A stretch of DNA of 64,000 bases from Spirochaetota bacterium. GTDB lineage: Bacteria; Spirochaetota; Spirochaetia; Treponematales; UBA12059. The position numbers and the translations under genes are program-made. Where the stretch lies: NCBI GenBank assembly GCA_018262985.1, contig JADFDI010000008.1, positions 1 to 64,000 of the forward strand, given 5' to 3'. Below are positions 134-50,949 of this stretch, piece after piece (the stretch's first letter is position 1; the number at the start of each line of letters is the position of its first letter). The notes under the pieces were generated by a model. That model did no database searches and was not told where the DNA came from. It was given only the letters and a program-made list of their open reading frames with translations.

Positions 134-2527
134 TCAGGTGCCTTTCTTGAGGAAGGCGTCGCGGAAGCCGAGCGACTTGGCCCTGAGCAGGGCCACGCCG
201 CTCTCGTCGCGGCCGAGCGGTCCGAGCACGAGCCGCCAGGTGGTTTTGCCGTCCTTGCCGGCGATGCGCTCCGCGAGCACGGTTCCCAGGTCCATGACGC
301 GCGCCGCGGCCGACTCGAGCGCGGAGAGGTCCGCGTAGGCTCCCAGCTGGATGTAGAAAGCGCCTTTCTCGAGGCCCGCCACCACGGTCACCTTGCCCGG
401 GGCCGCGGCGGGCGACGGGGCGGGCGCGGCGGCGACGACGGGAAGCGTCCCGGCCGGCGCCGCGCTAGGCGGGCGCGGCGAGGTGGGTTCCACCGAGACG
501 GCGACCGGCCCGGTCGCCGCGGATGGCGGCGCGACCGCGGCCGCGGCGGCATCCTTCGGGAGCGGGGCGGCGACAGGGGCCGCGGCGACAGGAGCCGCGG
601 CGACAGGGGTTGCGGCAGCCGCGGGCTTCGCGCCCGGATCGGCCAGGGCGGCCGTGGCGGCGCTCGCGGCGGGAGCCGGGATGCGCGCGGCGGCCTCGGG
701 ATTTTCCAGCGACGGATCCGTCAGGACGACGGACGCCTCGGTGCCGGTCGGGGCCGCCAGGCGGGGTTCGCCGTCGGGACTCTCGAGCGCCGGATCGGCC
801 AGCGCGGCGTCGAAGGCGGCGCCGTATGGACGAATGGACGGCGAGCTCGCCTCGGGGTCGACGAGGTCCGGTTCCGAGAGGCTCGCCTCTGCGAAGGCCG
901 GGAAAGGATGGAGGACGCGCCCGGAGGCCGCGGAGGGGGTTTCCTTGCCGGCCGGCTCGGGATCGTGCAGGGCGAAATCGCCGGGCCAGAGCTCCGCGGA
1001 CGGAGGAGCGTCGTAGTCGTGGAGGCCGGCGAACTCTCCTTCCTCGATGCGGATCACGCCCTCGTCGAGCGCGAGCTCGGGGATGGCCATGGCCAGGGCC
1101 GGAGCGGCCACGATATCGTGGACGCCGGGAATCTCGCCCGGAGCCAGGCCCGGCTCCGAGAGCAGGGCTGACACCTCGGGCGAGAGCGGCTCGGGCGCTT
1201 CGATGCCGTAGGCGAGCGCCCGCTCGACGCCCGGGGCCGACGGATCGTGGAGGAAGACCGCGGCCGGACCTTCCTCGCGTCCGGCGCGGAGGAGCTCGTG
1301 CGCGAAGGCCAGCTCTCCGGGGCTCAGGTCGTACGGGGGATCGTAGAGCGAGGCCGACGCGACGAAGGACTCGAGGCCGGGGCGCTCGAGGGCCATGACG
1401 AGGGCGAGCTCCTCGGGGGTGAGCTGGAAGCGGGCGTCCATCAGTTCCGCGGAGACGGAAACGCCTTCCTTGCGGGCCCGTTCGAGCGCGAGGAGGAAGG
1501 CCCGATCCTCGGGGACGAGGACGGGCGCGGCGGGGGGAGCCGGCGGTCTGGGTTCGGCCCAGGCGTCGGGGGGCGAGGCCGCGGCCATTCCGGGCCACGG
1601 CAGCCCCGCGAACACGGATGGAAGCTCGGGAGGCGCGACCGGCTCGACCAAGGTCGAGCGGACGAGCGAAGCCCCCGCGGAAGGTATCTTCGGGGTCTGG
1701 AACACCTCGGGAGGACGCGGAGCCTCCGCGACGGGAGTCGGGGCGGGTGCTGCGACCGGCTTGGCCGGCGCGGGGACCGGCGCCGGCAGGGGACCCGTGG
1801 CGGGTTTCGTCGAGACGGCCTCGGGGACGGGGTCGGCCGCCACCAGCTCGGGCGGCCTGGGGGAGGTCGGCGCGGTCGAGGGGACGGCCGTGACGGGGGC
1901 GGTCGTGACGGGGGCGGTCGTGACGGGGGCGGTCGTGACAGGGGCGGTCGCCACGGGAGCGGTCGCCACGGGAGCGGTCGCTGCGGGCGCGGTCGCCGCG
2001 GGCGCCGCTTCGACCGGCGCGGTCGCCACGGGCGCGGTCGCGACGGGGGCGGTCGCCACGGGCGCGGTTGCCGCGGGCGCCGTGGTAACGGGCGCGGGCG
2101 CGACGCCGCGAGCCGCGGCTTCCGCCGCGGCTTTGCGCGCCAACAACGACGGGTTGAAATCCGGGTCGCTCGTGTCCCCGCGCGAGGCCGGGGATCCGAT
2201 GTCGGCCACGGACCTGGGCTCGGAGACCGCCACCCGGGCGACGACGCCCGAGTCGATGCCGAGCGCGAGCGCCGCCTCGGGCGACAACACCATGAAGATG
2301 CCGGCGCTCGACAGTCCCTTGGTCACGATGACGGTGACCGCGCGATCGTTTTCGATGTTGCGGACCTCGACGGCGGTGTTCCGCTCGAACGAGTTGCAGG
2401 CCGCGAAGAGCCCCGTGGCGGGGAACTCCCCGTAGGCGCCCATCATCGCGGTGCCTTCCCAGGAGGACGAGGAAAGGGCCGTCGCCGCGGCGAGGACCAG
2501 GAGAAGCGAGGAAGCGATGCGTTTCAC
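134..2527 (-). CDS. Secreted RlpA-like protein with repeat linker and C-terminal SPOR domain
   Basis: The 797-residue product has a signal peptide (VKRIASSLLLVLAAATALSS) and an RlpA-like double-psi barrel region at about residues 20-105 (WEGTAMMGAYGEF). A very long Ala/Pro/Thr/Val-rich linker follows, and a SPOR domain fills about the last 75 residues (AFYIQLGAYADL...WRLVLGPLG). SPOR domains bind denuded septal peptidoglycan, so the protein probably acts in the periplasm at division sites. The NDRGPF-type catalytic stretch of RlpA lytic transglycosylases is replaced by TKGLSSAGIF, so enzymatic activity is doubtful. I chose the GTG at 2527: it follows a GGGAGGGA ribosome site and overlaps the upstream stop as GTGA. 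An ATG-type start 15 codons earlier is less likely. The repeat linker dominates composition and makes homology calls outside the two domains unreliable. Confidence 0.75.
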   Translation of the reverse strand: MKRIASSLLLVLAAATALSSSSWEGTAMMGAYGEFPATGLFAACNSFERNTAVEVRNIENDRAVTVIVTKGLSSAGIFMVLSPEAALALGIDSGVVARVAVSEPRSVADIGSPASRGDTSDPDFNPSLLARKAAAEAAARGVAPAPVTTAPAATAPVATAPVATAPVATAPVEAAPAATAPAATAPVATAPVATAPVTTAPVTTAPVTTAPVTAVPSTAPTSPRPPELVAADPVPEAVSTKPATGPLPAPVPAPAKPVAAPAPTPVAEAPRPPEVFQTPKIPSAGASLVRSTLVEPVAPPELPSVFAGLPWPGMAAASPPDAWAEPRPPAPPAAPVLVPEDRAFLLALERARKEGVSVSAELMDARFQLTPEELALVMALERPGLESFVASASLYDPPYDLSPGELAFAHELLRAGREEGPAAVFLHDPSAPGVERALAYGIEAPEPLSPEVSALLSEPGLAPGEIPGVHDIVAAPALAMAIPELALDEGVIRIEEGEFAGLHDYDAPPSAELWPGDFALHDPEPAGKETPSAASGRVLHPFPAFAEASLSEPDLVDPEASSPSIRPYGAAFDAALADPALESPDGEPRLAAPTGTEASVVLTDPSLENPEAAARIPAPAASAATAALADPGAKPAAAATPVAAAPVAAAPVAAPLPKDAAAAAVAPPSAATGPVAVSVEPTSPRPPSAAPAGTLPVVAAAPAPSPAAAPGKVTVVAGLEKGAFYIQLGAYADLSALESAAARVMDLGTVLAERIAGKDGKTTWRLVLGPLGRDESGVALLRAKSLGFRDAFLKKGT
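1888..2098. repeat. 15-bp minisatellite coding for ATAPV-type pentapeptides
   Basis: About fourteen imperfect copies of a 15-bp unit (GTGACGGGGGCGGTC and variants) lie head to tail inside the SPOR-domain gene. On the coding strand they give pentapeptides such as ATAPV, TTAPV and EAAPA. The unit is a multiple of three, so copy-number changes would keep the frame. The encoded segment is probably an extended periplasmic spacer between the barrel and SPOR domains. Confidence 0.8.
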
Positions 2528-43086: not shown

Positions 43087-43735
43087 ACCGCTCGTTGATG
43101 CCCGCGGGCTCGAGATCCGCTACGGCGAACGGGTGGCGCTCGCCCTGGATCGCTTCGAAGTCCGGCGCGGCGAGCTCGTGGCCCTGCTCGGGGCCAACGG
43201 CTCCGGGAAGACCACCCTGCTCAAGGCCTTGGGCGGCCTCGTCCCGCTCGCGCGCGGCTCCGTCGAGTTCGACGGCCACCCGCTCTCGGAGGACGCGCCG
43301 CGCCGCGCCCGCCGCGTCTACGTCCACCAGGCGCCCTACCTGCTCGCCGGCTCGGTGTTCCGCAACGTGGCCTTCGGGCTCCGCGCGAGCGCGCGCGATG
43401 GCGGGCGACCCGCCCGCGAGGAGCTGCGAGCGCGGGTCGCGGACGCGCTCAGGGCGGTCGGGCTCGCGGGCTTCGAGCGCCGCGCCGCCCGCGAGCTCTC
43501 GGGCGGCGAATCGCAGCGGGTGGCCCTCGCCCGCGCCCTCGTCCTCGAGCCTGAGCTGCTCCTCCTCGACGAACCGACCGCCGCCGCCGACGCGGCCAGC
43601 CGTCCCCTCGTCCTCGACGCGGTCCGCGCCTCCCGCGCCCGCTCGACCCTCGCCGTCGTCTTCTCGACCCATGACGAGCCGCTCGCGCGCGAGCTCGCCG
43701 ATCGCGTAGTCCGCCTTCCGGAGGCCGCCAAGTGA
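43079..43735 (+). CDS. tupC: Tungstate-type ABC transporter ATP-binding protein
   Basis: The 218-residue ATPase has Walker A LLGANGSGKTTLLKAL, Q-loop YVHQAPYLL, signature LSGGESQRVALARAL, Walker B LLLLDEPTAA and a switch His in VFSTHDEPLA. It is shorter than many because it lacks a regulatory C-terminal domain. It completes a TupABC importer. It is coupled to moeA by a GTGA overlap. Confidence 0.88.
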   Translation: MLEPLVDARGLEIRYGERVALALDRFEVRRGELVALLGANGSGKTTLLKALGGLVPLARGSVEFDGHPLSEDAPRRARRVYVHQAPYLLAGSVFRNVAFGLRASARDGGRPAREELRARVADALRAVGLAGFERRAARELSGGESQRVALARALVLEPELLLLDEPTAAADAASRPLVLDAVRASRARSTLAVVFSTHDEPLARELADRVVRLPEAAK

Positions 43736-44904
43736 TACATCCCGACGCCGCGCTCGCCCTGATCGAAGCCCTCGAACCCGCCGTCGCGACCGAAACCGCG
43801 CCGCTCCCCGAAGCCCTGGGCCGCGTCCTGGCCCGCTCGCTCGAAAGCCCTGTCGACCAGCCGCCTTTCGACAAGTCCGCCATGGACGGCTTCGCCCACG
43901 GCCTTCCGCCGGGCGCGAGCGGCGAATTCCGCGTCGTCGCCACCATCGCGGCCGGCGGCCTTCATTCGCGCCCCCTCGGCGACGGCGAATGCGCCCGCAT
44001 CATGACCGGGGCGCCCCTGCCCCCCGGCGCGGTCTCGGTCCAGCGGGTCGAGTGGACTGAAGAGAGCGGTCCCGGCCTCGTGCGCTTCGCCAAGCCCGAG
44101 AAGGTCGACAACGTCATCCGCCGGGGAGAGAACGTACGCTCGGGCGACGTGATAATGGCGCCGCGCCGGCTCCGGGCCCAGGACCTCGGCATATTGGCCG
44201 CCGCCGGCTACGCGGAACTGCCCGTCGCCCGGAGGCCGGTCGTGGGCGTCATCTCCACCGGCGACGAGCTCCGCTCCGCGGGGGAAGCCCTCGCGCCCGG
44301 CGCCATCTACGACTCCAACGGCCCGCAGCTCGTCGCGATGGCGCTCGCCGCGGGCGCCCGCGCCTCCTTCCACGGCAGGCATCCCGACAGCGAGTCCGCC
44401 CTGGAACGCGCCGCCGCCAATGCCCTCGAGGAATGCGACCTGCTCGTACTCTCCGGCGGCGTCTCGATGGGCGACTACGATTACGTCCCCGCCGTCCTGG
44501 CGAGGCTCGGCGTCGAGCGCATCTTCCACGGCGTCCTCATGAAGCCGGGCAAGCCCACCTGGTTCGGCCGCAAAGGCGCGCGCTTCGTGCTCGGCATGCC
44601 GGGGAACCCCGTCTCCACCTTCGTCAATTTCGAATTCTTCGGGAAGCCCCTTCTCGCGCGGCTCCAGGGCGTCCGGTACGAGCCGCCGGTCCTGACGCTC
44701 CGCCTCGCCGGAGACCTTTCGCGGAAGAACGCCGACCGGGTCGAGTGGTTCCCCGCGCGGCGCGAGGGCTCCGGGGTCCGCGTCCTGCCCTACTCCGGCT
44801 CGTCGATGCTGCAGGCGCTCGAAAACGCCGACTGCATGGTCCGCCTCGAGATCGACGAAAAATTCCGCGAAGCGGGAAGCGAGATCGATGCGCGACTCCT
44901 TTGA
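43732..44904 (+). CDS. moeA: Molybdopterin molybdenumtransferase MoeA
   Basis: The 390-residue protein inserts molybdate or tungstate into adenylylated molybdopterin. It shows PVDQPPFDKSAMDGFA, GECARIMTGAPLPPGA, VVGVISTGDELRSAGE, IYDSNGPQL, LSGGVSMGDYDYVP and KPGKPTWFG...LPGNPVSTFVNF-type segments. Start is the GTG at 43732 overlapping the tupC stop. It overlaps moaA by 17 bp. Located directly after the metal importer, it may select the oxyanion delivered by that importer. Confidence 0.93.
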   Translation: MIHPDAALALIEALEPAVATETAPLPEALGRVLARSLESPVDQPPFDKSAMDGFAHGLPPGASGEFRVVATIAAGGLHSRPLGDGECARIMTGAPLPPGAVSVQRVEWTEESGPGLVRFAKPEKVDNVIRRGENVRSGDVIMAPRRLRAQDLGILAAAGYAELPVARRPVVGVISTGDELRSAGEALAPGAIYDSNGPQLVAMALAAGARASFHGRHPDSESALERAAANALEECDLLVLSGGVSMGDYDYVPAVLARLGVERIFHGVLMKPGKPTWFGRKGARFVLGMPGNPVSTFVNFEFFGKPLLARLQGVRYEPPVLTLRLAGDLSRKNADRVEWFPARREGSGVRVLPYSGSSMLQALENADCMVRLEIDEKFREAGSEIDARLL

Positions 44905-45685
44905 CCGCGAGATCCGCTACCTCCGGATCTCGGTGACGGACCGCTGCAATCTCCGCTGCGTGTACTGCATGCCGGAGGAAGGCGTGCCGTGGATGCCCCG
45001 CCGCAGCGTGGTCGGCTTCGAAGCCATCCGCGACACCGTGGCCGCCGCGGTTTCGCTCGGCTTCGACAAGTTCAGGCTCACGGGCGGCGAGCCGCTCGTC
45101 CGGAAAGGCCTGCCCGCGCTCGTGTCCATGCTCCGCGCGGTGCCGGGCCTCGGGACCCTCGCCATGACGACCAACGGCACCCTGCTCGCGCCCTTCGCGG
45201 CCGACCTGAAATCCCGAGGCCTCGACTCCGTGAACGTCTCGCTCGACACGCTCGACGCGGAACGCTACGCCGCCCTGACCCGCGGCGGCCGGCTTGAGGA
45301 CGCGCTCGAGGGCATCGACGCGGCGATAGCGGCGGGCCTCGCGGTGAAGCTCAACGTCGTCGTCATGGACGACGACGGGGGGCGCGGGCTCGACCTCGTG
45401 CGGGACTACGCCGAAGCCAAGGGGGTCGCCCTCCAGTCCATCGCCCGCTACAGCCTTTCGGAAGCCAAGCGCGACGACCACGGGCACGACCGTCCGCCGC
45501 CCTGCGCGAAATGCGACCGCGTCCGACTCCTGGCCGACGGCACTCTTCGTCCCTGCCTGCGTTCCTCGACCGGCGTCGACCTCGACCGCGCCGATCCGGC
45601 CTCTTCCCTGGCCCGTTGCGTCGCGCTCAAGCCCGCCCTCGGACCGACCTGCGAAGACCTCGTGGTCGGCCAGATCGGCGGCTAG
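44888..45685 (+). CDS. moaA: Short GTP 3',8-cyclase MoaA
   Basis: The 265-residue radical SAM protein catalyses the first step of molybdopterin synthesis. It has the N-terminal cluster C20-x3-C24-x2-C27 (CNLRCVYC), KFRLTGGEPLVRKG, MTTNGTLL and VNVSLDTLD. The second cluster is C206-x2-C209-x13-C223 followed by R211 and R213, and the protein ends in the required double glycine (QIGG). It is about 60 residues shorter than usual MoaA (320-340): the stretch between KLNVVVM and the second cluster is compressed. Essential motifs survive, so it is probably functional. Confidence 0.85.
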   Translation: MRDSFDREIRYLRISVTDRCNLRCVYCMPEEGVPWMPRRSVVGFEAIRDTVAAAVSLGFDKFRLTGGEPLVRKGLPALVSMLRAVPGLGTLAMTTNGTLLAPFAADLKSRGLDSVNVSLDTLDAERYAALTRGGRLEDALEGIDAAIAAGLAVKLNVVVMDDDGGRGLDLVRDYAEAKGVALQSIARYSLSEAKRDDHGHDRPPPCAKCDRVRLLADGTLRPCLRSSTGVDLDRADPASSLARCVALKPALGPTCEDLVVGQIGG

Positions 45686-45738
45686 CCTTTTTGTCGGAAG
45701 TCCGCGGGAACGCGCGTTCCCGCATCGCGAGGTTTTAC

Positions 45739-46197
45739 ATGGAAGGAAAGCTCACCCACGTCGACGAGCGCGGCGCCGCCCGCATGGTCGACGTCTCGGC
45801 CAAGCCGCGCGTCAAGCGCGTCGCCCGCGCCCGCGCCTTCGTCGAGCTCGCGCCGGGGACGGTGGCCCTCGTCCGCGCCAACGCGCTCGAAAAGGGCGAC
45901 GTCCTCGCGGTGGCGCGCGTCGCGGGCATCATGGCCGCCAAGCGGACGGCCGAGCTCATCCCCCTCTGCCACAACATCGAGATCGAGCGGGTCGAGGCGG
46001 AGCTCGAGGTCCGGGACGACGGCATCGCCATCCGGACTCTGGCCGCCTGCACCGACAAGACCGGCATCGAGATGGAGGCCCTCACGGCGGCCTCGGTCGC
46101 GGCGCTCGCGGTGTGGGACATGTGCAAGGCCGTCGACAAGGGCATGCGGATACGCGAGATCGAGCTCGTCGAGAAGACCAAGGAGGTGGCGCCATGA
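45739..46197 (+). CDS. moaC: Cyclic pyranopterin monophosphate synthase MoaC
   Basis: The 152-residue enzyme converts the MoaA product into cyclic pyranopterin monophosphate. It opens LTHVDERGAARMVDVSAK and has GIMAAKRTAELIPLCHNI and EMEALTAASVAALAVWDMCKAVD. ATG 45739 follows CGAGG. The 53-bp gap after moaA is the largest in the operon, with no terminator seen. It overlaps the MOSC gene (ATGA). Confidence 0.95.
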   Translation: MEGKLTHVDERGAARMVDVSAKPRVKRVARARAFVELAPGTVALVRANALEKGDVLAVARVAGIMAAKRTAELIPLCHNIEIERVEAELEVRDDGIAIRTLAACTDKTGIEMEALTAASVAALAVWDMCKAVDKGMRIREIELVEKTKEVAP

Positions 46198-46643
46198 TCG
46201 CCAACGAAGGCGAGTTCACCGTGGAATCCCTCAACGTCTCCACGGCGAAGGGAACGAAGAAGAAGCCCGTCGACGCGGTCGTCCTCAGGGCCGGCTGGGG
46301 CATCGAGGGCGACGCGCACGCGGGCGAGTGGCACCGCCAGGTTTCGCTGCTGGCCGACGAGGACGTGGAGACCATGCGCGCGCTACTCCCGACCATAGCG
46401 CCGGGCGACTTCGCGGAAAACGTCACGACGACGGGCGTCGCGGTCGCGGAGCTTCCCGTCGGGGCGCGCCTCGAGCTCGGAGCGGCCGTGCTCGAGGTGA
46501 CGCAGATCGGCAAGGAATGCCACCATGGTTGCGAGATCCGCGCCATCGTGGGCGACTGCGTCATGCCGCGCAAGGGCATCTTCACCCGGGTGCTCGTCGG
46601 AGGGGAGGTCCGCCGTGGTGATCGCGGTCGTTACCGTTTCTGA
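46194..46643 (+). CDS. MOSC-domain protein
   Basis: The 149-residue stand-alone MOSC domain is related to the C-terminal domain of molybdenum-cofactor sulfurases. It has the conserved Cys in GKECHHGCEIRAIVGDC and the closing MPRKGIFTRVLVGGEVRRGD. It may sulfurate or carry the cofactor for a hydroxylase such as the one encoded at 6.4-9.8 kb. It is translationally coupled to moaC and overlaps mogA by 29 bp. Confidence 0.88.
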   Translation: MIANEGEFTVESLNVSTAKGTKKKPVDAVVLRAGWGIEGDAHAGEWHRQVSLLADEDVETMRALLPTIAPGDFAENVTTTGVAVAELPVGARLELGAAVLEVTQIGKECHHGCEIRAIVGDCVMPRKGIFTRVLVGGEVRRGDRGRYRF

Positions 46644-47082
46644 CCGCGCCTCGGCCGGGATCTACGAGGACCGCTCGGGCCCCGAGCTCGAGCGCCTGCT
46701 CCGCGGGGCCGCGCCCGAAGCGGAAATCCGGCGCGCGCTGGTGCCCGACGAGAAGGACCGCATCCTCCAGGCGCTCCACGCCCACGCCGACGCGGACTGG
46801 ATCCTCACGACGGGCGGCACCGGTCCCGCGCCCCGCGACGTGACGCCGGAAGCCGCGGCCGCCTTCTGCGACCGCGCCGTGCCCGGCATCGCCGAGGCCA
46901 TCAGGGCGAAGAGCCTGCTCGAGACGCCGAACGCGGTTTTCTCGCGCGGATATTCGGGGATGCGCGGCGCCACCTACGTCGTCAACCTGCCCGGCTCGAC
47001 CGCGGCGGTGCGCGCCGCCATGGAGGTGCTCGGCCCCGTCCTCGAGCACGGCCGGAAAATGGCCCGCGGCGAGCCGCACTAG
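46615..47082 (+). CDS. mogA: Molybdopterin adenylyltransferase (MogA/MoaB family)
   Basis: The 155-residue protein activates molybdopterin with ATP before metal insertion. It shows IAVVTVSDRASAGIYEDRSGP, DWILTTGGTGPAPRDVTPEA and a MRGATYVVNLPGST-like substrate loop. The start is one of two adjacent GTG codons (46615 or 46618) after GGGGAGG. MogA and MoaB cannot be told apart by eye. It is the last gene of the operon; a repeat-like element follows directly. Confidence 0.88.
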   Translation: MVIAVVTVSDRASAGIYEDRSGPELERLLRGAAPEAEIRRALVPDEKDRILQALHAHADADWILTTGGTGPAPRDVTPEAAAAFCDRAVPGIAEAIRAKSLLETPNAVFSRGYSGMRGATYVVNLPGSTAAVRAAMEVLGPVLEHGRKMARGEPH

Positions 47083-47321: not shown

Positions 47322-49220
47322 TCACGCGCCCCATTCGGCGTAGAGCTTTTCCGCGAGGCGGTTCTTCTCCTCGAGCTCGCGGGCCAGGCGGCCCGCCAGG
47401 GCGAAATCGCGCGCGGCGGCGGCCCTGGCCGACTTGCGTTCGAGTTCGACCTTCTCCGCCTCGAGCGCCATTATCCTCCTCTCGAGCTCCGCGTCGCGCG
47501 AGCCCGCCTTCGGCGCGGCCTTCGAGCCCCGCGTCCTGTCGGCCGCCCTCGACTCGAGATCCGCCCCGTTTTTCCCCGCCGGGCGCCGGACGACGCGGCC
47601 GACGCCGAGCCCCGCGCCGAGATCGCGCCAGAATTCGGCGAAGCCCCCCTCGTAGGCGGTGAAGCGCCGGTCCTCCACGAGGAGCACGCGGTCGGCGACG
47701 CGATCGAGCAGCCAGCGGTCGTGCGACACGAGCAGCACGGTGCCGCGGTATTCCTCGAGCGCCTCCTCGAGCGCCTCGCGCGAGGCGACGTCGAGGTGGT
47801 TGGTCGGCTCGTCGAGGAGGAGGAAGTCCGCCTTTATCCAGGCCGCCGCCGCCACGTCGAGCCGCTTCCGCTCGCCGCCCGAGAGCTCCTCGACCGGCCG
47901 GTCGAGCGCGTCGCGGGGGAAGAGGAAGCGGGAAAGGTGCTTCGCGGCCTCGTCCGGCTTCGCTCCGAGCTTTTCGATCCATCCGGACACCGTGACTCCC
48001 CCGGGGGCGCGCTCCGGTTCCTGGGGGCAATAGCCGATGGTCGCGCCGGGACCGGGACGGATGCTGCCCGAGCCGTCGCGCGGCGCGGCCGCCAGGTCGC
48101 GGAGGAAGGTGGTCTTGCCGGAGCCGTTGGGACCGACGATGGCGGCCCGCTCGCCCGGCTCGAGGTCGAAGGCGGCGTCCTCGAAGAGCACCCGCTCGCC
48201 GAAGGCGCGCGAATAGCCGGAGACGCGTAGCGCGAAGTCGGCCTTGCCCTCCTCCACCGCGATGCGGGCGTCCATGCGCCGAGCCTCGCCGGCGGGGCGT
48301 TCGGTCGCGCGTTCCTTCTCGCGCGCGAGCTGGCTGCGGCGCGCGCGCAGCCGCTTGCCCCAGGCCGGGTCGGGGCGCGCCCGGGCGATTTCCGCGAAGC
48401 GCGCGACCAGGGCCTCGAGACGCTCGAGCTTCTTCCGGTCAGCCTGCCAACGCTCGCCCTGCCCCGCCGCGCGCTTGAGCTTTGCCAGCCGGTAGGCCGA
48501 CCAGCCCCCCGTCCAGCTCGAAAGCCGTCCGTCCTCCACCTCCACCACGCGAGTCGCCACGCGGTCGACCATGCGGCGGTCGTGGCTCACGAGCAGCACG
48601 GCCTGCGGCAGCGCGGCGAGGAAGTCCTCGAGCCAGGCGAGTCCCCAGAAATCGAGGTGGTTGCCCGGCTCGTCGAGGACGAGCAGCTCCGGCTCGCCCG
48701 CCATGGCGAGCGCGATGGACAGCACGTTGAGCTCGCCGCCCGAGAGGCTCGCGGCCTCCGTGTCGGCGGCGTGGCCGAGACCGGTCATGGTAAGGAGGCG
48801 CCGCGCGCGGTCCTCCGCCTCGTCCCCGCCCGCGCGCTCGAATTCCTCCCGCGCTTGCGCCCAAGCTTCGAGGAGGGGTCCCTCGCCGCCGGGCCGCGCG
48901 CGCGCGAGCTCCTCCTCGATGCGCGAAAGCCGTTCGCGGGCCGCGCGCGCGGGGCTTTCCACGACCGCGGCGCAACTCAAGCCCGGCTCGGGCCGGAAGG
49001 CCTGGGGGACGTAGCCGATCCTGAGGCCCGGCCGCCTCGCGAGCTTCCCGCGGAAGTCGTCGTCGAGGCCGAGGAGGATGCGGAGCAGCGTGGTCTTGCC
49101 CGAGCCGTTCGCGCCGACCAGGGCGACCTTCTCGCCCGGTTCGATGGAGAAGTCCGCCTGGACGAGGACGGGATTCCCGCCGAAATCGCGCGAGAGCGAA
49201 CTGCATTCTATGAGGGGCAT
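47322..49220 (-). CDS. ABC-F family ATPase (translation factor type)
   Basis: The 632-residue protein has two ABC domains and no membrane segments. Domain 1 shows VGANGSGKTTLLRILLG and a signature changed to LSGGELNVLSIALAM. Domain 2 shows VGPNGSGKTTFLRDL, LSGGERKRLDVAAA and LLLDEPTNHLD. The inter-domain P-site tRNA-interacting linker is at about 245-330, and there is a C-terminal coiled coil (about 560-632; MALEAEKVELERKSARAA). ABC-F proteins bind the ribosomal E site and either help stalled translation or confer resistance to ribosome-targeting antibiotics. The ATG at 49220 follows AGGAGG; a 69-codon extension is rejected. The leader has a small ORF and terminator (see findings). Confidence 0.9.
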   Translation of the reverse strand: MPLIECSSLSRDFGGNPVLVQADFSIEPGEKVALVGANGSGKTTLLRILLGLDDDFRGKLARRPGLRIGYVPQAFRPEPGLSCAAVVESPARAARERLSRIEEELARARPGGEGPLLEAWAQAREEFERAGGDEAEDRARRLLTMTGLGHAADTEAASLSGGELNVLSIALAMAGEPELLVLDEPGNHLDFWGLAWLEDFLAALPQAVLLVSHDRRMVDRVATRVVEVEDGRLSSWTGGWSAYRLAKLKRAAGQGERWQADRKKLERLEALVARFAEIARARPDPAWGKRLRARRSQLAREKERATERPAGEARRMDARIAVEEGKADFALRVSGYSRAFGERVLFEDAAFDLEPGERAAIVGPNGSGKTTFLRDLAAAPRDGSGSIRPGPGATIGYCPQEPERAPGGVTVSGWIEKLGAKPDEAAKHLSRFLFPRDALDRPVEELSGGERKRLDVAAAAWIKADFLLLDEPTNHLDVASREALEEALEEYRGTVLLVSHDRWLLDRVADRVLLVEDRRFTAYEGGFAEFWRDLGAGLGVGRVVRRPAGKNGADLESRAADRTRGSKAAPKAGSRDAELERRIMALEAEKVELERKSARAAAARDFALAGRLARELEEKNRLAEKLYAEWGA

Positions 49221-49313
49221 GACGGGCCTCCTGGAAACGGGTCGATCGCGGGCGGCCTCGCTCGGCCGTCCCTCCCCGACGGGGATGGACCGGCGCGCGC
49301 CGGAGGCCGCCCC

Positions 49314-49340
49314 GTCCCCGGACGCGCGAGGTCCGGGGAC
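49314..49340 (-). other. Second leader hairpin of the ABC-F mRNA
   Basis: A perfect 10-bp inverted repeat (GTCCCCGGAC / GTCCGGGGAC, 7-nt loop) begins at the base after the terminator T-run in the ABC-F leader. It could stabilise read-through RNA or take part in alternative folding. Confidence 0.55.
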
Positions 49341-49372
49341 AAAAAAGCGCGGCCCCCTCGAGGCGGCCGCGC
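49341..49372 (-). terminator. Intrinsic terminator inside the ABC-F leader
   Basis: On the minus strand the 8-bp stem GCGCGGCC/GGCCGCGC, with a further CCT/AGG in the loop, is followed at once by six T (49346-49341). It lies 23 nt after the stop of the small leader ORF and about 120 nt before the ABC-F start. The only minus-strand promoter seen for it is the one at 49511-49539, so it can act only on this leader. Confidence 0.8.
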
Positions 49373-49395
49373 GTCGGTTCCCGGTTCGGATTATC

Positions 49396-49503
49396 TCAAA
49401 AATCTCCAACCGTACCTGCGGGCGCACCTATCCTGTCCGGGGAGCCGCCGCCCTGGGGGCTGCGGAGGAAGGCGAGGAAGTTCTCGCGGGTGCCGGTTGA
49501 CAT
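49396..49503 (-). CDS. 35-residue leader peptide ORF upstream of the ABC-F gene
   Basis: The ORF starts at the ATG at 49503, 7 nt after the -10 box, and encodes a peptide beginning MSTGTRENFLAF with a central PQGGGSPD. It ends with TGA at 49396. There is no Shine-Dalgarno, so it would be translated as a leaderless mRNA. Its position between promoter and terminator suggests that ribosome progress over it controls termination. The Gly codons (GGCGGCGGC) are complementary to GCCGCC in the 5' arm and loop of the terminator. No family is recognised. Confidence 0.6.
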   Translation of the reverse strand: MSTGTRENFLAFLRSPQGGGSPDRIGAPAGTVGDF

Positions 49504-49510
49504 GGAGAGG

Positions 49511-49539
49511 AGACTACCAGCGAATCGGCGGAGGGTCAA
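49511..49539 (-). promoter_or_regulatory. Promoter of the ABC-F leader
   Basis: On the minus strand TTGACC (49539-49534), 17 bp, TAGTCT (49516-49511), then 7 nt to the ATG of the leader ORF. Confidence 0.7.
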
Positions 49540-49584: not shown

Positions 49585-50949
49585 ATGGAAACCGCGGAGA
49601 AGCTCGCCCTGCTCGCGGCCTCGGCGCGCTACGACGCCTCCTGCGCCTCGAGCGGATCCGCGCGGCGAGGCGCCCTCGGCGCGGCCAACGCCGGAGGAGT
49701 CTGCCACGCCTGGACCGAGGACGGGCGCTGCGTGAGCCTGCTCAAGGTGCTGCTCTCCAACCGCTGCCGCTACGACTGCGCTTATTGCGCCAACCGGGCA
49801 TCGGCCGAAGTTCCGCGCGCCTCCTTCGAAACCGACGAGCTCGTACGCATCGTCGTCTCGTTCTACAGGAGGAACTACATAGAAGGCCTCTTCCTGTCCT
49901 CGGGGGTCTTCGCGGAGCCGGATACGGTCATGGAGCGCATGAACGAAGTCGCCCGGCGCCTCCGGCGCGACGAGGGCTTCGGCGGCTACATCCATCTGAA
50001 GGCCATACCGGGCGCGGGCGAACGGACCCTCGCGGAGGCGGGCTTCCTGGCCGACCGGCTTTCGGCCAACATCGAGCTGCCCACGGCCCGCGCCCTCGCG
50101 TCCCTCGCGCCCGACAAGGACGGCCGGGCCATCGTCGGCATGATGCGCTCGATCGACGGACGCATCCGGGAGGACGCGGACGGCCGTCGCGGCGCCGCTC
50201 GCCGGCCCCGGGCCTGGGCGCCCGCCGGCCAAAGCACCCAGCTCGTGGTCGGCGCCAGCCCCGACTCCGACCGCGAGATCGTGGCGCTCGCCGGCGCGCT
50301 CTACCGCGAAGTACGCCTGCGCCGCGTGTACTACTCGGCCTACCTGCCGGTCTCGACGGATCCGCGCCTGCCCGGCTCGCCGCCGCCCCTGCTCCGCGAG
50401 CACCGCCTCTACCAGGCCGACTGGCTCGTGCGGCGCTACGGTTTCTCGACCGGGGAGATCCTCGAGGACGACGCCGAGAACCTCGACCCGGACTTGGACC
50501 CGAAGAGCGCCTGGGCGCTCCGGCACCTCGACCGCTTTCCCGTCGAACTCGCGAAGGCCCCGTGGGAGGAGCTGCTTCGCGTGCCGGGCATCGGCGCGAC
50601 CGGCGCCCGCCGCATCCTCGAGTCCCGGCGGGCCGGCGGCCTCTCCCTGGAAGCCCTTCCCTCGCTCGGCATAGTCATGAAGCGCGCGCGCTGGTTCGTG
50701 ACCGTCCGCGGCCGCGCCCCGGCCGGAGCGGGGACGGATCTCGCCCTCCCGCGGCTCCGCGCCCTGATCTCGGACCGGCCCGCCCCGCGCGGAGACGACG
50801 CACCCGGATCCGCGCCCGCGGTGGATACGCGATCCCTCGAAGCGCCCCATCCCAGCGCCGTTCATCCCGGTTCCGCGGAGGGCGTCCCGCCGGTCCCCGC
50901 GGCCGATCCCCTGCAACTCGAGCTCGGACTCGGGAAGGGAGCGGCATGA
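49585..50949 (+). CDS. Putative DNA modification/repair radical SAM protein with HhH motif
   Basis: The 454-residue protein is of the family whose partner is a DUF4130/uracil-glycosylase-linked protein. It shows ARYDASCASSG, the cluster CRYDCAYC (about 62-69), NRASAEVPRASF, YIEGLFLSSGV, HLKAIPGA, ANIELPT and YYSAYLPV. A helix-hairpin-helix (LLRVPGIGATGARRILESRR, about 330-350) suggests contact with DNA. Sequence kinship is to spore-photoproduct-lyase-like enzymes, but the reaction is unproven. The last 90 residues are low complexity. Its stop overlaps the next gene (ATGA). Confidence 0.88.
   Translation: METAEKLALLAASARYDASCASSGSARRGALGAANAGGVCHAWTEDGRCVSLLKVLLSNRCRYDCAYCANRASAEVPRASFETDELVRIVVSFYRRNYIEGLFLSSGVFAEPDTVMERMNEVARRLRRDEGFGGYIHLKAIPGAGERTLAEAGFLADRLSANIELPTARALASLAPDKDGRAIVGMMRSIDGRIREDADGRRGAARRPRAWAPAGQSTQLVVGASPDSDREIVALAGALYREVRLRRVYYSAYLPVSTDPRLPGSPPPLLREHRLYQADWLVRRYGFSTGEILEDDAENLDPDLDPKSAWALRHLDRFPVELAKAPWEELLRVPGIGATGARRILESRRAGGLSLEALPSLGIVMKRARWFVTVRGRAPAGAGTDLALPRLRALISDRPAPRGDDAPGSAPAVDTRSLEAPHPSAVHPGSAEGVPPVPAADPLQLELGLGKGAA

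Follow-up and report, generated by a model that had tools for sequence, protein, structure and literature searches.

The locus considered here raises the question of whether the short stretch of DNA lying ahead of an ABC-F gene, on the minus strand of a 64,000-nucleotide contig segment from a Spirochaetota bacterium (hereafter, the window, meaning the whole stretch analysed), is a ribosome-mediated switch or a layout due to chance. An earlier note on this DNA had described a promoter, a 35-codon ORF, a terminator with six T, a second hairpin, an AGGAGG motif and the ATG of the ABC-F gene, in this order, and the description proved correct to the base. The features of the leader, in the direction of transcription, are the following.

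49534-49539, minus strand: -35 box TTGACC.
49511-49516, minus strand: -10 box TAGTCT, after a 17-nt spacer, with the start of the upstream ORF (uORF) 7 nt on.
49396-49503, minus strand: uORF of 35 codons, starting at 49503, with the leader peptide MSTGTRENFLAFLRSPQGGGSPDRIGAPAGTVGDF (then stop), supported by open-frame and synonymous-codon comparison.
49465-49503, minus strand: R1, the 5' part of the uORF, predicted anti-antiterminator strand (best duplex with the core, 49491-49465).
49450-49464, minus strand: RSPQG codons, by comparison the window form of a conserved in-frame R-x(2,3)-G; proposed stalling region.
49417-49437, minus strand: R2, the conserved core GACAGGATAGGTGCGCCCGCA, strand common to the predicted anti-antiterminator and antiterminator.
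49383-49411, minus strand: P1, a hairpin that straddles the stop of the uORF and separates R2 from the terminator; possible pause hairpin, with a mean z of -2.0 in the 39 leaders.
49362-49372, minus strand: R3, the 5' arm of the terminator, predicted from pairing to form an antiterminator of about 10 bp with R2 (49428-49418).
49341-49372, minus strand: intrinsic terminator, a GC-rich hairpin (49372-49347) followed by U6 (49346-49341), about -24 kcal/mol, present in all leaders.
49314-49340, minus strand: second hairpin (GTCCCCGGAC/GTCCGGGGAC), conserved within the genus only.
49227-49232, minus strand: Shine-Dalgarno AGGAGG of the ABC-F gene, read from the sequence.
47322-49220, minus strand: ABC-F gene (ATG at 49220), 632 aa, ribosomal-protection-like.

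The protein encoded by this gene contains two ABC_tran domains and reaches 436 bits with the ribosomal protection model NF000355, whose curated cut-off is 380, while it falls far below the cut-offs of all the named ABC-F resistance subfamilies listed; among solved relatives, those nearest to it in sequence are EttA, ExpZ (VmlR), YheS, YbiT and Uup. A paralogous ABC-F of the same genome stays just under that cut-off (362 bits). This paralog, on G000 contig 16, is a protein 48% identical to that of the window, and its leader (L028, also L063, at 312190-312301) is a shorter and diverged version in which the uORF contains a perfect hairpin of 9 bp. The divergent neighbour of the ABC-F gene, at 49585-50949 on the plus strand, encodes an rSAM_link_UDG protein (TIGR03916, radical SAM linked to UDG). 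By eye, it may also be leaderless (TTGCGC-17-TATGGT-6-ATG), and a TIGR03916-like protein divergent to leader and ABC-F gene is found in several genomes of family f4. On the plus strand, at 43732-47082, molybdenum cofactor genes converge on the ABC-F gene: moeA, moaA, one whose product has a MoCF_biosynth domain, and probably others.

Taken as a single sequence, the leader is unremarkable. Thus, the folding z of the whole window leader against shuffles is -0.87, and a consensus scan of 10 kb returned as many terminator-like sites as were found in shuffled sequences. Taking into account the weakness of these statistics, it is the comparative evidence that lifts the leader above chance. The earlier note had suggested a search for orthologous loci lacking the small ORF and the terminator. 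Within the same family, an ABC-F ortholog (identity 48% or more) is present in 19 genomes, of which 16 keep both, two clearly lack the leader (L014 and L019), and in the remaining one (L015) the contig is too short to judge. L014 and L019 are close relatives in which the whole leader has been lost, the ABC-F gene standing directly behind a short intergenic stretch.

A first covariance model built from the same-family leaders led to further families of the order and the class, and a second model extended this reach; the window leader is found at an E value of about 1e-19, the window copy being itself among the training sequences. In total, 39 homologous leaders were collected; they all come from a single class, in which they represent no fewer than 8 families (f1, f4, f6, f36, f38, f41, f44 and f46). 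The leader is followed by an ABC-F gene in 36 of them, by the end of the contig in two (L064 and L074), and, in L090 (family f36, E 1e-7), by the gene of an ABC exporter that contains ABC_membrane and ABC_tran domains, which suggests that it controls more than ABC-F genes. At this last locus (about 1380-1650, minus strand), the leader core and terminator precede an MsbA-type exporter and the uORF is led by a Shine-Dalgarno sequence. In four cases (L075, L076, L077 and L078), the stretch from the leader to the ABC-F gene holds a further terminator-like hairpin with a T-run and, after it, a second small ORF that starts MF[TI]G[VFA]II[V]; these are possibly tandem attenuators. Outside the class, the hits obtained in 247 genomes sampled across the phylum were attributable to chance, most of them consisting of a coding end followed by a terminator, and no copies of the leader were found in the phages and plasmids searched. 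In the collection of named genomes, from which near relatives are possibly absent, a scan by pattern gave two matches, both unrelated and due to chance, and Rfam 15 contains no match to the leader at gathering score, its weak matches being at chance level. Judged by comparison of sequences, the leader in front of ABC-F genes is real and conserved across the class, and is not a chance layout.

The next question is whether the small ORF is translated. The earlier note had inferred its translation from a leaderless mRNA, and the placement of the ORF at the expected 5' end of the transcript, or within a nucleotide or two of it, is conserved across the class. In a promoter scan, the distance from the -10 box to the uORF start was 6-8 nt in 35/39 leaders, with a mean best promoter score of 8.74, against 5.82 (sd 1.0) in shuffled upstream sequences, where the best site fell at 5-8 nt in just 21%. 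The clear exceptions are L018 and L090, with a Shine-Dalgarno sequence before the uORF; in L018, the 7-nt promoter site that was counted is too poor to be a real promoter. Since the start is held at this distance in nearly all leaders, leaderless translation of the uORF looks ancestral in the class. In the window, a rough look at 49 long ORFs gave three candidate leaderless starts within eight well-scored promoters, so that such starts occur, although they are not the rule.

The reading frame of the uORF, 24-37 codons long across the leaders, is open up to the core in 39/39, whereas stops interrupt the other frames in 33/39 (the +1 frame) and 9/39, a count somewhat biased because the starts were chosen with promoter and open frame in view. 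Moreover, at position -33 from the core an Arg codon, spelled CGC, CGA, CGG or CGT, is present in 26 of the 29 leaders that share the same frame (in the genus of the window it stands one codon earlier), and at -24 a Gly codon with a free third base is present in 24 of the 29. The resulting R-x-x-G motif is found in the uORF frame in 36/39 leaders, and it stays in that frame when the core falls in another one, the exceptions being L028 and L064 (paralog's shortened leader). Because the Arg and Gly codons vary synonymously and the motif follows the frame of the uORF, conservation operates at the level of amino acids; the comparative evidence thus indicates that the small ORF upstream of the ABC-F gene is translated.

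The core, GACGGGAGAGGTSTGYCYG (in the window GACAGGATAGGTGCGCCCG, from 49437), behaves differently: it is conserved at the RNA level and falls in all three reading frames. This, together with a P1 hairpin whose conservation reaches beyond the ORF, could be taken to indicate a ligand- or protein-binding RNA, similar to a riboswitch, in which the ORF is incidental. Such an explanation is considered unlikely, as it is opposed by the tight spacing between -10 box and start codon, by a frame that is always open beside a +1 frame that is mostly closed, and by Arg and Gly residues kept in frame with synonymous codons even where the core shifts frame.

For a ribosome-mediated attenuator, the core has two predicted partners: R1, in the early codons of the uORF, giving an anti-antiterminator, or R3, in the 5' arm of the terminator, giving an antiterminator. 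A test in which duplex strands were swapped among species gave a significant result for R1:R2, at about 0.1% of shuffles, whereas swapping R3 did not significantly lower the stability of R2:R3; therefore, the nascent transcript was folded up to the end of R3, with R1 free or blocked, and the results were averaged over 19 groups with shuffled and swapped controls. The p values that follow are optimistic, because the 19 groups are phylogenetically related. The expected number of R1:R2 pairs was 8.5 in native leaders, against 2.9 when R1 was shuffled (p = 0.0005) and 3.4 when it was swapped. R2:R3 pairs rose from 2.95 with R1 free to 6.43 with R1 blocked, this last value being reduced to 4.53 when R2 was shuffled (p = 0.018). 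Furthermore, the 2.95 pairs allowed by native R1 became 6.27 with shuffled R1, the suppression being observed in 19/19 groups (p = 4e-6). Three of the 39 leaders run counter to the expected direction.

Individual leaders offer examples of covariation. Thus, in L054 the diverged core GGGAAGTC is matched by an R1 with GACTTTCCC and by an R3 with GGCTTCC, in L022 AGGTCTGT pairs with ACAGACCT, and in L090 GTCTGCGG pairs with CCGCAGAC. Formal covariation counts in one clade were not clearly above those of shuffles, and RNAalifold on the raw alignment recovered the terminator and nothing else. For the leader family as a whole, an anti-antiterminator that contains the uORF is predicted, mutually exclusive with an antiterminator that uses R3. 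In one clade, 100% of cells retain the helix of P1. A further hairpin inside the uORF, P0, seems universal by eye, but it was rejected as a class-wide element because shuffles do not support it (mean z -0.5 across leaders). The earlier note had proposed that the Gly codons of the window leader (GGCGGCGGC) act as antiterminator by pairing with GCCGCC of the terminator. These codons belong to the local and unconserved stem P0, and this part of the proposal is not supported; it is the core AGGTNYGYYC, some 24 nt further downstream, that is conserved as the antiterminator strand.

The window copy (L005) is a weak representative of its family. Its R1:R2 helix is weak, R2:R3 forms with R1 free, and blocking R1 gives no rise, for which reason the window, considered in isolation, would be weak proof of the switch. 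Its two congeners, L006 and L035, show better switch behaviour, and the copy in the window may be a drifting or leakier one.

Taken together, the conserved leaderless uORF, core and terminator, the mutually exclusive R1:R2 and R2:R3 pairings beyond controls, and the linkage to ABC-F genes make it probable, from sequence comparison, that the leader is a ribosome-mediated transcription attenuator of the ABC-F gene, as had been suggested for this locus on the basis of features that now appear conserved across the class. According to this proposal, transcription would begin at or beside the start codon of the uORF, and ribosomes would load on the leaderless end. In unstressed cells, R1 would pair with R2, the terminator R3:R4 would form, and RNA polymerase would stop at about 49341. 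When a drug that targets the ribosome stalls it in the uORF, presumably up to or around the R-x-x-G codons, R1 would be covered, R2 would pair with R3 across P1, which is a possible pause hairpin, and, with no terminator, the ABC-F gene would be transcribed. Its product would then free or protect drug-stalled ribosomes. A ribosome covering R1 and leaving R2 exposed would agree with the near-constant distance between R-x-x-G and the core.

The conservation of Arg and Gly codons, and the existence in the same class of similar-looking leaders that have runs of Ala and precede an aminotransferase-like gene, could also be accommodated if the uORF sensed the supply of an amino acid or its tRNA, as in a classical Arg or Gly attenuator, rather than an antibiotic. 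This is very unlikely: there are one or two Arg codons and no run of them, synonymous codons vary, and the downstream gene encodes an ABC-F protein or an ABC exporter and not a biosynthetic enzyme. Finally, it is most improbable that an ordinary terminator ends a short orphan transcript while the ABC-F gene has an independent promoter and no switch exists. The stretch 49340-49221 of the window could accommodate a further promoter, but the order of promoter, uORF, core and terminator before ABC-F genes is kept class-wide, and several relatives have a gap of no more than about 46-53 nt between the T-run and the start of the ABC-F gene, which leaves little room for one. A sigma-70 consensus scan of 10 kb with a simple tool found no site, a result that says little either way because the promoter of the uORF was missed too.

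Attenuation by a stalled ribosome being the preferred reading, a more specific version of it can be put forward tentatively: the leaders would constitute a class-wide family, not named before, whose leaderless uORF holds R-x-x-G as a conserved arrest motif, its distance from the antiterminator core being almost constant. This motif would stall the ribosome upon exposure to a class of drugs, or under a state of translation, to which the very short uORFs of known ABC-F leaders do not respond, and the family would also drive an ABC exporter. If the switch operates as proposed, drug-responsive ABC-F attenuation would be extended to a whole bacterial class in which no earlier description has been found; in a literature search of partial coverage, no ABC-F attenuator was found in spirochaetes. 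The sequence family is now searchable by covariance model, and the role of the peptide becomes directly testable, with R-x-x-G in frame and at a near-fixed distance from the shared RNA strand. A leaderless sensor ORF also raises the question of whether translation of such ORFs continues when ordinary initiation is prevented, a property that would be useful in sensing damage to ribosomes.

The use of a leaderless ORF as the sensor of an attenuator had been thought new, but there are precedents. In Sinorhizobium, this function belongs to the leaderless small ORF trpL of rnTrpL (PMC7298713), and in mycobacteria it is performed, as far as the account of Canestrari 2020 given in PMC13236596 goes, by leaderless polycysteine ORFs. 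As these systems are described there, they sense Trp and Cys, respectively, and not the state of the ribosome, and the genes that they control are not ABC-F genes. In other families of the class studied here, L089, L091, L092 and L094 (about 1380-1650) code for different leader peptides, in which Ala codons occur in runs (MKHTNLSSQHLHLAAAAAAATMVGPL, MSGITCSCTLFSTAAAAAARRGAAV, MNKISELFTVCNLSAAAAAAPSEGIAG) and which start close behind a -10-like box, followed by a terminator and an aminotransferase-like gene (named by eye from the sequence); each is probably an alanine attenuator, also leaderless.

Among the systems that control ABC-F genes, the leader of msrD (PMC10314930) resembles the one proposed here in that ribosome stalling on a leader peptide controls an ABC-F gene. 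Stalling is macrolide-dependent there, a specificity shown for msrD, and peptide and sequence differ. The leaders of cplR, vmlR2, lsaA and lmo0919 also combine a uORF and premature termination upstream of ABC-F resistance genes (PMC10201436), a likeness that, for the leader studied here, would include induction. The uORFs of cplR, vmlR2 and lsaA have very short consensuses (MR[I/M], MK[L/Q] and MAGN, respectively), and stalling on them is considered to follow initiation and to need little sequence context (PMC10201436), whereas here stalling would take place well inside a longer peptide.

The closest likeness in architecture is to vmlR of Bacillus subtilis, where drug stalling on the uORF prevents the formation of an anti-antiterminator and expression is subjected to both transcription and translation attenuation (PMC9226507). 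RNA polymerase pausing and an SD-sequestering hairpin, perhaps not essential, also take part in that system; in the window, the fold of 49346-49190 offers no convincing case of SD sequestration. Both leaders contain a uORF, an anti-antiterminator hairpin that includes it, an intrinsic terminator, an alternative antiterminator, and a downstream ABC-F gene, these elements being predicted from sequence in the present case, where P1 may correspond to the pause hairpin of vmlR. By contrast, the two sequences are unrelated and probably belong to different bacterial phyla, and the uORF of vmlR is SD-led with the consensus MIN (PMC10201436), while the one described here is leaderless, spans 24-37 codons and bears R-x-x-G. 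Thus, the architecture itself is known, and what appears to be new with respect to the vmlR type is an unrelated sequence with a longer, motif-bearing and leaderless uORF.
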